26,118 bases of DNA from a virus, in the IMG/VR virus record IMGVR_UViG_3300025896_000173, positions 1-26,118 of that record, one strand, 5' to 3'. Position numbers and translations under genes: made by a program. A model generated the notes under the pieces. It was not told the origin of the DNA. It worked only from the letters and a program-made list of their open reading frames with translations, and did no database searches. Shown here in pieces: positions 412 through 7,081 of the stretch; positions within the stretch are counted from its first letter, which is position 1; each line of letters opens with the position of its first letter.

Positions 412-1146
412 TTAAGTATTTTCATCGTGTATCATATTAAGTGCCTCTTTAGCTGAATTAACCATTGATTCCATTTTGCTCGGTTGACCATTGGACAAAT
501 TTTGTCCTTTTTTATTAAAGTCTTTTTTAACCCATCGTTCTAATCTACTCTTTACACTCCAAGTTTCTTGAAGTTCTTGTTTGAATTTAGTATTAGATTT
601 ATTAGGTTCAGTCCAGTATTCATAAAATTCTAATAAAGTTTCACGACCATAAATTTCTAAATAAGGTTTGAGTGTGTCAGCAAATTTTAATTTGCGGTCT
701 TCTATATCATTTACTTTAATTTCTTTTTCTTTTATTTCCTTTAATTTCTTTTCCTTTATAGCATTGCTATTGGATTGCGTTGGCAATGCGTTCGCATCAC
801 TTTTATTTTTATCCCATCTATAACGTGCTGATTCGCTTGCTTTTTTACTTTTAGCATCTCGTTCATCTAATCTTTTTTGAACTGACATTGAACCAAAAAT
901 ACCATCATTAATAACAAACAATTCAAAGTCATTTATAATGCTTTTTACTAATTCATTTGTGGTTCTTAAATCATAGGCTATAATATCGTAATCCAATTGC
1001 AATGCGTTCGCATTATTATAAAGGTCTTCAACTATTGCCCAAAATAAACCATAACCCAAATACCCATGCTTAGATATTAGTTTTTTTATTTTTTGGTCGT
1101 TTCTTGTATTATAATCGTGACTAAAGTAAAAAGTGTCTTTGCTCAT
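412..1146 (-). CDS. Replication initiator-like protein (DUF4373 type)
   Basis: A 244-aa protein from the ATG at 1146. The frame is open to a TTG at 1191, but MSKDTFYFSHDYNTRNDQKI is the expected start of a DUF4373/Lin1244-like N-terminal domain. That domain (about 1-95) reads HGYLGYGLFWAIVEDLY and is probably a DNA-binding winged helix. A Lys/Glu-rich linker follows (about 130-150), then a C-terminal domain with EFYEYWTEPNKSNTKF, QELQETWSVKSRLERWV, the common end of such proteins. In Bacteroidota phages these are the putative initiators or helicase-loader proteins. The gene contains two identical palindrome-bearing repeats and a pyrimidine-rich tract (plus strand), like the lambda O-gene origin. 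Function is inferred from family and position. Confidence 0.75.
   Translation of the reverse strand: MSKDTFYFSHDYNTRNDQKIKKLISKHGYLGYGLFWAIVEDLYNNANALQLDYDIIAYDLRTTNELVKSIINDFELFVINDGIFGSMSVQKRLDERDAKSKKASESARYRWDKNKSDANALPTQSNSNAIKEKKLKEIKEKEIKVNDIEDRKLKFADTLKPYLEIYGRETLLEFYEYWTEPNKSNTKFKQELQETWSVKSRLERWVKKDFNKKGQNLSNGQPSKMESMVNSAKEALNMIHDENT
783..797. repeat. Palindrome-bearing 15-bp repeat, copy 1
   Basis: The plus strand reads GCAATGCGTTCGCAT and includes the perfect palindrome ATGCG-TT-CGCAT. An identical copy lies at 999-1013, also inside the replication gene. It is a candidate initiator-binding site, but there are only two exact copies. Confidence 0.5.
999..1013. repeat. Palindrome-bearing 15-bp repeat, copy 2
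   Basis: Identical in all 15 bases to 783-797 and in the same orientation, 216 bases apart. The protein context reads ANAL in both places, so codon coincidence is a partial alternative explanation. Confidence 0.5.
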
Positions 1147-1147
1147 C

Positions 1148-1246
1148 TTACTGCATAAAAAAAGCATCGCTACTTTCTCTGTTTGACACAATCCCGAATG
1201 AAGGATTACAGATACTTATAACGATGCTTAATTTAAATTTCTTCAT
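1148..1246 (-). CDS. Possible 32-codon leader ORF
   Basis: ATG at 1246 to TAA at 1148, ending one base before the replication gene's ATG. The predicted peptide begins MKKFKLSIVISICNPSFG. It spans three arms of the inverted-repeat leader, so its translation would affect the folding. It has no recognised homologue and could be a chance ORF. Confidence 0.25.
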   Translation of the reverse strand: MKKFKLSIVISICNPSFGIVSNRESSDAFFMQ

Positions 1247-1272
1247 ATTCTCATTTTGGCAAGGTGTCAAAC
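1162..1272 (-). promoter_or_regulatory. Leader with two interleaved inverted repeats
   Basis: Four arms lie in transcription order: GTTTGACAC (1272-1264), AAGCATCG (1229-1222), GTGTCAAAC (1189-1181) and CGATGCTT (1169-1162). The first pairs with the third (9 bp), the second with the fourth (8 bp). The two stems cross, so they could form a pseudoknot or exclude one another. The last arm is followed by further T residues to 1157, like a terminator. Together they suggest an attenuator. Confidence 0.4.
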
Positions 1273-1294
1273 TTGTTGCTCCAATTTTCTTTTA

Positions 1295-1302
1295 CAAATA
1301 TA
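1295..1302 (-). promoter_or_regulatory. Candidate -7 box (TATATTTG)
   Basis: TATATTTG on the minus strand matches TAnnTTTG and lies about 150 bases upstream of the replication gene ATG. No convincing -33 box is seen. A start near 1289 would give a leader of about 145 bases containing the interleaved inverted repeats at 1162-1272. Confidence 0.4.
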
Positions 1303-1389: not shown

Positions 1390-1653
1390 TCATTGGTAAC
1401 TATTGATTAGCTTTTTAGATGTCTTTTTGAAGTCAAGCGAATACTCAATGAATGAACAACTATTGCCAAATATTGACAATTTAGTAACTCTTTCTTTTTT
1501 GATTGAGAATCCCAGTGCAATGATGTCAGCTATTCTTTGAGGTAACTTGGTGCAGTACCCAAATTGCTTTTGAGTAGCTTGAATTGATGTGATTTTGTTG
1601 CCTGCTATCAAGTAGCAGATGATTGATTCGGTTTGTGTTTTTGGTTTTTTCAT
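1390..1653 (-). CDS. Small helix-turn-helix protein (HTH_39-like)
   Basis: An 87-aa probable DNA-binding protein. The stretch TQTESIICYLIAGNKITSIQ followed by a CTKLPQRIADIIALGFSIKK segment matches the winged-HTH pattern of Bacteroidota phage proteins (HTH_39-type): a short N-terminal helix, an HTH with QATQKQFG, then IADIIALGF. Its basic N-terminus (MKKPK) fits DNA binding. It precedes the replication gene and is separated from it by about 240 bases containing a candidate -7 box and inverted repeats, so it could act there. Confidence 0.72.
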   Translation of the reverse strand: MKKPKTQTESIICYLIAGNKITSIQATQKQFGYCTKLPQRIADIIALGFSIKKERVTKLSIFGNSCSFIEYSLDFKKTSKKLINSYQ

Positions 1654-1673: not shown

Positions 1674-1916
1674 TTAAAATAAATTTAATTGTTGTTTAGG
1701 TCTTGTGCAAGTTACTTCTGAAACTATTGATATGTTTTCCTTTAATAATGGTAAATAATAAGTATTATCTTCTTTATAACTATGACAATATTTGCAAGGT
1801 TTTGATTTTAATTCAGAATGACCAGTGCATAATACACTACCAATTTTTATGTCATTGTATAACTCGCATGGTTTTATATAAACTCCTGAATCAAATTCTG
1901 CAATTTCAGTTATCAT
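1674..1916 (-). CDS. Small cysteine-rich protein
   Basis: An 80-aa protein with a possible zinc site: C30, H33, C41, C44 and H45 in the order CTGH ... CKYCH. Residues 1-29 are acidic and 46-80 include YYLPLLKENISIVSEV and a final RPKQQLNLF. Function unknown; the metal site could be structural. It ends 20 bases before the HTH gene begins and starts one base after the alpha-CTD-like gene ends. Confidence 0.65.
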   Translation of the reverse strand: MITEIAEFDSGVYIKPCELYNDIKIGSVLCTGHSELKSKPCKYCHSYKEDNTYYLPLLKENISIVSEVTCTRPKQQLNLF

Positions 1917-1917
1917 T

Positions 1918-2265
1918 TTATTTATTTAGGTTTTTTAAAATGTATTGTAATTCACTAAGACATTTGTTGCCGAAATTTCGGATTCTCAAAAGGTCTCTGT
2001 CGCTTAATTGCTCTAAGTCTTTTAAGGTGTAGATTTTGTTATCAAGTAAGCAATTCTTAGTTCTTACCGACAAATCCATGTCTTTTATGTAGACTTGTTG
2101 TTCAGGTTCTTTTTTCTCATTATTTTCTTCGTTGTGCTTTAATAAGCCTGCAAATAGATTCTTTTCATGATACCTAAGCATTCCTAATGCTTCAAGTGGT
2201 GTAACTTCATCAGTCCATTTAATAGAGGTCTGTAATCCATTGTATTCTATTGTTATTGTTTTCAT
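1918..2265 (-). CDS. RNA polymerase alpha-CTD-like protein
   Basis: A 115-aa protein whose C-terminal part (about 58-115) closely resembles the DNA-binding C-terminal domain of bacterial RNA polymerase alpha. In E. coli alpha numbering, R265 corresponds to R68, N268 to N71, C269 to C72, N294 to N97, G296 to G99 and K298 to K101; S299 is replaced by C102 and K291 by R94. These are the residues that contact UP-element DNA. The start of the domain reads DLSVRTKNCL and the second helix-hairpin region LLRIRNFGNKCLSEL. Residues 1-50 are a separate domain (TITIEYNGLQTSIKW, then a helix) of unknown function. It may bind promoters or the host polymerase; this is an inference. It overlaps NinG by four bases. 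Confidence 0.82.
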   Translation of the reverse strand: MKTITIEYNGLQTSIKWTDEVTPLEALGMLRYHEKNLFAGLLKHNEENNEKKEPEQQVYIKDMDLSVRTKNCLLDNKIYTLKDLEQLSDRDLLRIRNFGNKCLSELQYILKNLNK

Positions 2266-2789
2266 TTTATTTTGTATTTGTTTTTAATTAATTGTAATTC
2301 TTCTATTGTCCATTTCTTTGTTCGTGTTTCATTTGCTAATTCTTCAAGTGCGATAACCTGCTCAAGTCCTATTTTGTTAATCAATCCTTGTCGGTATGCT
2401 GCGGTGTTCCCATCTAAGTATTGGTTACAATAGCTGCATTGTTTATTCACGTTCCTTTCATCAAATATAACTCCGCTGTATATCTCCGCTTTCAAGTAAT
2501 GCCCACCATCCCATTTAGCTTCGGTCGTTCCACAACTTATACAAGGCTCTTTTATATCTCGTAATCTTACCCACTTTTGAAAGTGTAACTTAATCGGATT
2601 GCGTAATTGTGCTTGCGTTTTAAGTTTCTGTTTAGCTTCGGATTTGATTTCGGAATTAACCCTCTTAATACTTGTTTTCTTTGGGTGCAATTTACCCCAC
2701 TCAATAGAATGTTCGAAAGAGCAAATTGATTGTAGTGGTTTTTTTGGTATAAAATATTCTTTACAATATTTACATCTCTTTTTTTTCAT
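2262..2789 (-). CDS. ninG: NinG-like recombination endonuclease
   Basis: A 175-aa NinG/Rap-like protein, in lambda a Holliday-junction resolving endonuclease. It has an N-terminal zinc site (C6-x2-C9, C23, H27), then KWVRLRDIKEPCISCGTTEA (about 92-111), the conserved DGGHYL (114-119) and the VNKQCSYCNQYLDGN segment with further cysteines (134-148), ending in a basic helix. These are the family's key elements and spacing. It is encoded next to the recombination pair, consistent with resolving branched intermediates, and it overlaps the next gene's start by 4 bases. Confidence 0.88.
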   Translation of the reverse strand: MKKKRCKYCKEYFIPKKPLQSICSFEHSIEWGKLHPKKTSIKRVNSEIKSEAKQKLKTQAQLRNPIKLHFQKWVRLRDIKEPCISCGTTEAKWDGGHYLKAEIYSGVIFDERNVNKQCSYCNQYLDGNTAAYRQGLINKIGLEQVIALEELANETRTKKWTIEELQLIKNKYKIK

Positions 2790-3318
2790 AATATGCTACA
2801 TCGTGATTATTATTATAAACCCCACTCAATGCCCTACAAATATTTGACGAATCAATTTTTCTATCTTTACTAAAATCACTTATAGAATCATATATTTTAC
2901 CAGTTCTTAAACATATAACCTTTTTAGCAACTAATTTTTTTCTCTCTTTTAATCCATCATCCATTAATCCATTTTTATAAGCATGTCGCATATTTTCAGA
3001 TTTAGTAACCCATTCTAAATTTTCTACCCTATCATCAGCCTTGTTACAATTAATATGATTTACCTCTTCCTTATTATCTTTATTTTCAATAAATGCAATA
3101 GCTACAAGTCTACAAATTCTTTTGTTTATATAATTTAAACTAATGCAATTGTAACCCTTAACATATTTTGGCTTCATTATTTTTTCTTTTCTTACTCTAA
3201 AAAATTCTTTGCCAGTCGTGTTATGCTTATAAGGTATTTTCTTTTCAAGAACCTTTACTCTACCTAAATTACTGACCATGTAATTTTCAAAACCATCAAT
3301 TAATTTCCATATTTCCAT
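2770..3318 (-). CDS. Free-standing NUMOD4/HNH homing endonuclease
   Basis: A 182-aa homing-type endonuclease. It begins with a NUMOD4 motif (EIWKLIDGFENYMVSNLGRV), followed by an HNH_3 nuclease core at about 60-112 (RLVAIAFIENK, VNHINCNKADDRVENLEWVT, SENMRHA); H88 and N100 are the likely catalytic or metal-site residues. Residues 131-180 look like a partial NUMOD1-type DNA-binding module (TGKIYDSISDFSKD, IDSSNICRALSG). It makes a site-specific DNA cut that spreads its own gene. It is inserted between exonuclease and NinG genes, overlaps NinG by 20 bases, and is preceded by a 107-base gap unlike the tight packing elsewhere. Confidence 0.88.
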   Translation of the reverse strand: MEIWKLIDGFENYMVSNLGRVKVLEKKIPYKHNTTGKEFFRVRKEKIMKPKYVKGYNCISLNYINKRICRLVAIAFIENKDNKEEVNHINCNKADDRVENLEWVTKSENMRHAYKNGLMDDGLKERKKLVAKKVICLRTGKIYDSISDFSKDRKIDSSNICRALSGVYNNNHDVAYYEKKEM

Positions 3319-5534: not shown

Positions 5535-6139
5535 TATGGTTCTATTATTATTGGTTGTCCACCCATGTTTAAATATGCTTGGCAAATTTCTTCTAATGAC
5601 ATATCGTTCAAATCATACATTACTGGTATCTCTTTATGTTCAGGTACTCCAAAATCGCAGGTGTCAATTAGTGCGGTGTCTTTGTATTCGCTAATTGCGG
5701 TTAATACTTGGTCATAATTAAGGATTGAATTGAATATAAAATTAGATTGCTTAGGTGTGTATTGGACCTCTATGATATGTCCTAATGTATCGTGTATTGT
5801 ACTTACTGCATACTCAACTTCAAATCCATAATTTCGACTAATATCTATTGCTGCTAATAACTTGTCAAAATCTGACTTGTCAAGTTTTAATTCAAAGCTA
5901 TGTTTCCACATCTTGCGAATAAACCAATCCATTTTATCGGGGCAATGTTTCATCATACTTTCGTAAATATCTGAAAACATTTTGCGGGCTGTTTCAACCT
6001 CATACAATACAATTATCATGTCTGTTGCAATATTGAATAGTGAACGATAGTTTGGTGATGTAAAAGTTTCTTCGCTGTCTAATTGCTCTTGAAAATTGCG
6101 AATTAGGCATTCTTTAGTAGTTTGGTGTGGTGTTGTCAT
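5534..6139 (-). CDS. Unknown 201-aa early protein
   Basis: The largest gene of the early cluster, 201 aa. The first 115 residues are helical (LFNIATDMIIVLYEVETARK, WFIRKMWKHSFELKLDKSDF), followed by a more mixed region and an acidic end (MYDLNDMSLEEICQAYLNMGG). There is no obvious active-site motif, signal peptide or membrane helix. I do not recognise it. It overlaps the next gene by one base (TAATG), indicating coupled translation. Confidence 0.6.
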   Translation of the reverse strand: MTTPHQTTKECLIRNFQEQLDSEETFTSPNYRSLFNIATDMIIVLYEVETARKMFSDIYESMMKHCPDKMDWFIRKMWKHSFELKLDKSDFDKLLAAIDISRNYGFEVEYAVSTIHDTLGHIIEVQYTPKQSNFIFNSILNYDQVLTAISEYKDTALIDTCDFGVPEHKEIPVMYDLNDMSLEEICQAYLNMGGQPIIIEP

Positions 6140-6429: not shown

Positions 6430-6657
6430 TTAGTTTAAGTTTAAAGTTTGATATGAATTGATTTGATTTAATTTGATTGTGAGTTCTTTTAGCAGCCTAT
6501 TAGCTTGGTAAACCTTGCAGAATGTGTTATCATCTATTGCAATATTTCGCAGCCTTTGAACACGCTCGTAACGTGCAAGGATAGTGTTTGATTTTGATTT
6601 GTTCTGCATGGTCGTAATTTGTTCGCCATACATCATTCGTCTTAGTAGTTTTTCCAT
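6430..6657 (-). CDS. Unknown small basic early protein
   Basis: A 75-aa basic protein (MEKLLRRMMYGEQI, ARYERVQRLRNIA, a helical ANRLLKELTIKLNQI end). It is probably all-helical and could bind nucleic acid because of its Arg content, but no motif is recognised. It is packed between neighbours with gaps of 4 bases and 1 base. Confidence 0.55.
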   Translation of the reverse strand: MEKLLRRMMYGEQITTMQNKSKSNTILARYERVQRLRNIAIDDNTFCKVYQANRLLKELTIKLNQINSYQTLNLN

Positions 6658-6661
6658 TTTG

Positions 6662-6844
6662 TTATCTGATTTGTAAAGCTGTGATAAATCTTGTTATTGA
6701 AAATTTTTTGTTGAAGTAGATGACCCAAAAGTCAGGCGGTGTAAATCCAAATGTTGGGTCTCCCCATCTGCAATGGTCAATCAATTCAGGCATAATCTTT
6801 TCGATGTATTCCTTTTCTTCTTTGGTGGCTAATGCTCTTTCCAT
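6662..6844 (-). CDS. Unknown small early protein
   Basis: A 60-aa ORF with a charged N-terminal helix (MERALATKEEKEYIEKIMPEL) and an aromatic second half (GFTPPDFWVIYFNKKFSI). The DPTFGFTPPDFWVI stretch is distinctive but I cannot tie it to a family. It lies in the early operon 3 bases after the HTH gene. Soluble; function unknown. Confidence 0.55.
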   Translation of the reverse strand: MERALATKEEKEYIEKIMPELIDHCRWGDPTFGFTPPDFWVIYFNKKFSITRFITALQIR

Positions 6845-6847
6845 AAT

Positions 6848-7081
6848 TTAATGTTCGATTAATTGGTTAATTTTGATTTCTTTGGTTAATGGTTCGGTGT
6901 AGTTAGCGTGTTTCTTAAAGTAGCTGAGGAATGAATCTGTTGTCAATTTAGGGCTGTTAGATGTTGCCCACCTTTGAATGGTTCGCTCATTGCAGCCTAA
7001 ATCTATACTTAGCTTAATTCGTAAGTTGTAGTCTGTGGCTAATTGGTCTCTGTTCTTCTTTGTCATTTCTGTTCTTGTCAT
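6848..7081 (-). CDS. Small HTH DNA-binding protein
   Basis: A 77-aa protein with a probable helix-turn-helix: residues about 17-47 (TDYNLRIKLSIDLGCNERTI ... RW) match the pattern of an HTH recognition segment (LSIDLGCNERTIQRW), with a C-terminal helical tail. It could be the regulator of the dyad upstream of the early operon, or of the late genes. Length suits a small Cro-like protein. It is part of a tight operon (2-3 base gaps on each side). No ligand-binding domain is visible. Confidence 0.65.
   Translation of the reverse strand: MTRTEMTKKNRDQLATDYNLRIKLSIDLGCNERTIQRWATSNSPKLTTDSFLSYFKKHANYTEPLTKEIKINQLIEH

Follow-up and report, generated by a model that had tools for sequence, protein, structure and literature searches.

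A phage protein pairing a predicted RNA polymerase alpha C-terminal domain with an N-terminal domain of its own

What use might a bacteriophage have for a detached piece of RNA polymerase? The C-terminal domain of the alpha subunit (alpha-CTD) is the part of the polymerase that connects promoters with activators, and its helix-hairpin-helix surface is the grip of alpha on the minor groove of AT-rich UP-element DNA. The same fold is also used by repair and recombination proteins. The question is raised by a 115-residue protein encoded in the stretch of DNA analysed here, called the window, which comprises the 26,118 nucleotides of IMG/VR virus record IMGVR_UViG_3300025896_000173. This 26-kb record carries genes for a terminase, portal, major head protein, endolysin and metallophosphoesterase, in keeping with an earlier description of the protein as phage-encoded, and the virus infects Bacteroidota-type bacteria. 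On its left lies a block consisting of a YqaJ exonuclease, NinG, the alpha-CTD protein, an HTH_39 protein and a Lin1244-type replication protein. At only 115 amino acids, the protein makes activation, masking or competition by a free alpha-CTD directly testable.

Identity and conservation of the two domains

The gene occupies 1918..2265 on the minus strand, read from an ATG at 2265 to 1918, and its annotation draws on a Pfam RNA_pol_A_CTD match, 13 viral relatives and an AlphaFold model. A preliminary description, made by eye, had assigned residues of about 58-115 to the alpha-CTD and proposed a profile search and a structural superposition as checks; both agree with it. In Pfam, residues 47-111 align with positions 2-66 of the 67 in RNA_pol_A_CTD (PF03118) at 65.3 bits (E 4e-18), above the curated cut-off of 23.8 bits, with the listed contact residues aligned and no other helix-hairpin-helix family near that score. 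Profile-profile comparison pairs the CTD with Bacteroidota RpoA at 99% probability, and matches among PDB sequences are alpha subunits down to an E of about 0.03, the lower ones being unrelated, chance-like chains. The AlphaFold model (mean pLDDT 79 for the whole protein) consists of a beta-hairpin, a helix spanning residues 23-48, a weak linker and a four-helix alpha-CTD. In structural comparison, model residues 54-114 fit solved alpha-CTDs at a Z of about 12 and an rmsd of 0.8-1.4, the best VIA-align matches being 9dvt_A (Z 12.1, rmsd 1.4 over 61 residues) and 7vpd_S (Z 12.0, rmsd 0.8). The top solved structures are alpha-CTDs, some of them solved on DNA, while RAD51-type N-terminal domains also match the modelled fold at Z 9. 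By sequence profile and predicted fold, the C-terminal half is a true alpha-CTD.

The remainder of alpha is absent, as had been claimed. NCBIfam RpoA models align with essentially the C-terminal part and score far under their full-length equivalog cut-offs, and the 115-residue protein has no alpha-NTD assembly domain, the part that dimerises and binds beta and beta-prime. One caveat is that the N-terminal part is weakly co-linear, at the edge of significance, with the last strand and helix of the alpha-NTD.

The alpha-CTD part, residues 58-115, lies at 1921..2094 (minus strand) and is delimited by alignment, VIA-align and dN/dS. Eight alpha positions that contact the UP element have the following equivalents (E. 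coli residue first): R265=R68, N268=N71, C269=C72, N294=N97, G296=G99, K298=K101, S299=C102 and E302=E105. Seven of the eight are identical to alpha, S299 being the exception. When E. coli RpoA and 38 Bacteroidota RpoA sequences were aligned with nine phage CTDs, R265, N268, N294, G296 and K298 fell where the preliminary description had placed them. R265, C269, N294, G296 and K298 are present in all nine phage CTDs, and N268 and E302 in eight. The S299-to-Cys change, also pointed out earlier, is real in the window protein but is not a feature of the family: position 299 is Cys in seven of the nine sequences compared but Ser in L013 and L015, the relatives furthest removed from it. The RpoA sample has 17 invariant columns, among them the seven positions kept in eight or all nine phage copies. 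Those changed in every phage copy are A273 and V282, which lie off the DNA face, and the activator-side positions 271-274 and 282-287 differ from host RpoA. The protein therefore resembles the polymerase alpha-CTD in fold, profile and nearly all DNA-contact residues, and differs from alpha in its missing alpha-NTD, its phage-only N-terminal domain, its changed non-DNA surfaces and, in most copies, Cys299.

The CTD evolves under strong purifying selection, with a dN/dS of 0.08 among eleven close relatives against 0.28 in the N-terminal part. Compared with the two most distant relatives, it is the N-terminal part that is better kept, with 69-73% identity against 56% and 44% for the CTD. Since the CTD is under purifying selection and the N-terminal part is better preserved at a distance, both halves are functional, one as a conserved DNA-type surface and the other as a conserved private domain. 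Taken together, homology, predicted fold, contact residues and selection make DNA binding by the protein likely. The preliminary description also raised the possibility that the protein lures or reprogrammes host polymerase or masks host promoters.

The N-terminal domain, residues 1-52 at 2110..2265 (minus strand), is defined by the alignment of relatives and modelled with a pLDDT of 85. It is a beta-beta-alpha unit, a beta-hairpin followed by a long helix, with the motif TPxExLGxLRYHEKN. The preliminary description had called it a short unknown domain, and it has no confident relative by sequence or fold: searches of viral contigs, a phage collection and 395 Bacteroidota genomes returned nothing outside its own family, a fold search of the PDB gave no confident match, and the N-terminal part alone found no RpoA among PDB sequences. 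PHROG 11210 was considered as a relative and set aside; all six members match weakly (best E 0.005), and a search of 296 genomes for it gave one marginal match.

Genomic slot and a nearby intergenic element

The same two-domain protein occurs in 13 viral contigs and in a contig from one Bacteroidetes MAG (L015). Wherever the flanks can be read, the order NinG, alpha-CTD gene, HTH_39 is kept, while around this fixed trio the upstream recombination and downstream replication genes are exchanged. The constant upstream neighbour, a NinG/Rap recombination nuclease (2262..2789, minus strand; Pfam NinG 1e-38, PHROG 171, synteny), shares 4 bases with the alpha-CTD gene. The constant downstream neighbour is a winged-helix protein (1390..1653, minus strand; Pfam HTH_39 7.5e-7, synteny). 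An 80-residue ORF sometimes intervenes between the alpha-CTD gene and HTH_39; in the window it lies at 1674..1916 (minus strand), has Cys/His motifs (CTGHSELKSKPCKYCHS) and matches no Pfam or PHROG family. It is also found in L003, L011 and L193 and is absent from most relatives.

Two related contigs keep NinG and HTH_39 without the alpha-CTD gene. Because a DNA methyltransferase fills the slot in L170 and small ORFs fill it in L193, the alpha-CTD gene is accessory, and the phage type as a whole cannot depend on it as an essential switch. Further upstream, a NUMOD4/HNH endonuclease gene (2770-3318, minus strand; Pfam, synteny) lies between NinG and YqaJ. It looks like a homing insertion, since relatives (L001, L004 and L010) list YqaJ and NinG as adjacent genes. 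In the MAG contig, the gene for the Lin1244-type replication protein (L015:5946-6944) seems to hold an in-frame HNH-like stretch.

In the window, the Lin1244-type replication initiation protein (412..1191, minus strand; Pfam Lin1244_N 2.9e-11, PHROG 2562) lies downstream of a conserved intergenic element at 1145..1302 (minus strand), which comprises a -7-like site (TATATTTG), a hairpin and a terminator-like T run. Copies are found in L013 (~6657-6822), L015 (~5804-5970) and L001 (~6725-6890). The hairpin has the form CAAG-(8 nt)-CTTG, and the 8 nt of its loop find their complement in a tail further downstream. Loop and tail covary between phages, as in TTTGACAC/GTGTCAAA, TTTGACCA/TGGTCAAA and ACTGAAAC/GTTTCAG, and a second type is represented by GACTTCAC/GTGAAGTC and GGTCTCAC/GTGAGACC. 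All 12 promoter-bearing copies of the motif have a complement of 6-8 nt, whereas promoter-less copies nearly all have 6 nt or fewer. The element has no match in Rfam and is a candidate pseudoknotted attenuator RNA; it is possibly a target of the alpha-CTD protein or a site regulated together with it. Matches to sigma70-like promoters in the window are no more frequent than expected by chance. The same is true of Bacteroidota -33/-7 pairs, and the sequence therefore singles out no target promoter. Among the candidates, the conserved promoter-like site at 1302-1295, ahead of the structured element, is the best.

Alpha-CTDs elsewhere among phages and hosts

Phage proteins with an alpha-CTD have already been annotated as a class, and what is new here is the pairing with a beta-beta-alpha N-terminal domain. 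Annotated examples include many BFVD entries (such as A0A6J5QDR9) and proteins of Rhodococcus phage Finch and Mycobacterium phage Mithril, and further proteins ending in an alpha-CTD are encoded by Bacillus phage Goe8 (gp5, QDP42789.1), Microbacterium phages (Mazun gp26) and Mycobacterium phage Zenteno07. Like the window protein, these proteins are short with the alpha-CTD at the C-terminus; unlike it, they have other N-terminal parts and other hosts, and the phage collection holds no match to the window N-terminal domain. No paper explaining any phage-encoded alpha-CTD was found among the open-licence literature. An Arg at position 291 in place of Lys (K291R) at first looked like a signature of phage CTDs (15 of 15), but it fails in L122 (Lys), in the Microbacterium phages (Asp) and in Zenteno07 (Glu).

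A scan of viral contigs with the CTD alone revealed a second architecture, in which Sigma70_r4 is fused to RNA_pol_A_CTD. Four contigs score above both cut-offs (L035:3344-4210, L037:3590-4276, L039:3341-4258 and L040:1395-2237), while L036:3257-4180 has the RNA_pol_A_CTD match with sigma-4 below its cut-off. The L035 and L039 fusions have an additional N-terminal HTH. Such proteins would place a -35 reader and an UP-element reader on one chain without polymerase. The fusion gene of L035 ends a block of RecT, replication and DnaC-loader genes, so these proteins share with the window protein a phage-borne alpha-CTD and, in L035, a recombination and replication block; in contrast, the window protein has no Sigma70_r4 match in Pfam. 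A search of the fusion contigs for a terminase nuclease found none, and the case for their being viral therefore relies on IMG/VR and on the RecT and DnaC neighbours in L035. L122 (MT835636) looks like another sigma-4/alpha-CTD fusion.

In a tree built from 57 CTD residues, L035, L036 and L039 fall among Bacteroidota RpoA and L040, L037 and Goe8 with a Firmicutes RpoA; the window family stands apart as a single clade. This arrangement suggests that phages have captured alpha-CTDs several times independently; since many forks of the 57-residue tree are unresolved and its branches long, no donor species is inferred. Two records labelled as phage (MT835508 and MT839982) carry an ordinary rpoA and are probably bacterial contigs, and CTD-matching Salmonella and Acinetobacter records that carry rpoA look bacterial as well. 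Several Salmonella, Acinetobacter, Listeria, Staphylococcus and Enterococcus phage records with a CTD match may likewise be bacterial. Most of the 198 Bacteroidota genomes sampled contain just one CTD match, which is RpoA itself. Second matches in seven genomes (L092-L098) were rejected as weak helix-hairpin-helix relatives without the alpha residues, many of which they have lost.

Other phages are known to act against the same contact between alpha-CTD and UP element. Alt and ModA of phage T4 ADP-ribosylate Arg265 (PMC2988021), and gp67 of Staphylococcus aureus phage G1 disturbs the contact, according to its citation in PMC4495994. Whereas these factors modify or block the alpha-CTD of the host, the window gene supplies one. 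That phages disable alpha-CTDs and also carry copies fused to new domains suggests a little-studied way of steering host transcription.

Weighing the possible functions

The best explanation, to which we give about an even chance of being right, is that the protein binds DNA as a small transcription regulator, its CTD recognising AT-rich, UP-element-like sequences. Its alpha-CTD half was most likely derived from a bacterial rpoA and still presents the helix-hairpin-helix surface with which alpha binds DNA of this kind. The N-terminal beta-hairpin and helix may be a phage-specific protein-contact module, perhaps a dimeriser, that would bring a free alpha-CTD, or a pair of them, to selected DNA. 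Produced from the recombination and replication block together with the winged-helix protein, the regulator would most likely act on phage promoters of that block, such as the site at 1302-1295. There it would fill, or add to, the UP-element position upstream of host polymerase. Points in favor of a regulator are the profile and structure matches to alpha-CTDs, the retained residues of the DNA face, the low dN/dS of the CTD and the fixed slot between NinG and HTH_39; against it stand the chance-level -33/-7 pairs, the variable content of the slot and the RAD51-type structural matches. A transcription role for alpha-CTDs in phages is further supported because a protein joining HTH, sigma-4 and alpha-CTD ends a similar RecT/DnaC block elsewhere.

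The retained DNA face would also suit a decoy for host takeover, in which a free alpha-CTD fills host UP elements or soaks up activators that touch alpha, so that host transcription falls while phage promoters independent of the alpha-CTD go on. The T4 and G1 factors set a precedent for action on this contact, and the gene is absent from some relatives, as an accessory takeover gene may be. However, the altered activator-side positions argue against titration of host activators, the gene lies in a recombination and replication block and not in an isolated early takeover region, and the presence of an N-terminal domain with its own conservation hints at something beyond plain competition. We consider such a decoy unlikely. 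The constant adjacency to NinG, with its short overlap, could instead point to a plain helix-hairpin-helix DNA clamp that helps NinG or the replication initiator and has no link to polymerase. The RAD51-type domains and a weak RAD51D_N match in L013 are consistent with a clamp, but the RNA_pol_A_CTD score has no rival among helix-hairpin-helix families, and R265, N268, C269, N294 and K298 are kept, whereas the host relatives L092-L098 have lost many such residues; this reading also seems improbable.

Two further readings concern the N-terminal domain. Its topology resembles the dimerisation domain of Lsr2, which would allow an Lsr2/H-NS-like silencer whose beta-beta-alpha unit oligomerises while the alpha-CTD grips the AT-rich minor groove and the DNA becomes coated. 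Yet the match to that domain (4e1p_B, probability 0.10, E 4.8, 18% identity over 39 columns) is far below significance, and we regard a silencer as highly improbable. A different origin is raised by full-length profile alignments, which continue co-linearly into the end of the alpha-NTD. When the N-terminal columns were compared by hhalign with RpoA lacking its CTD, the highest-scoring placement coincided exactly with the co-linear position. It scored 18.1; 60 column shuffles averaged 11.7 and reached 18.4 at most. This marginal similarity spans window residues 6-41 and is suggestive, though not proof, of descent from the tail of the alpha-NTD. If so, hairpin and helix would correspond to its last strand and dimerisation helix, and a dimer of this reduced alpha could present two alpha-CTDs in trans, read UP elements without polymerase and activate phage promoters or mask those of the host, which we think quite doubtful.
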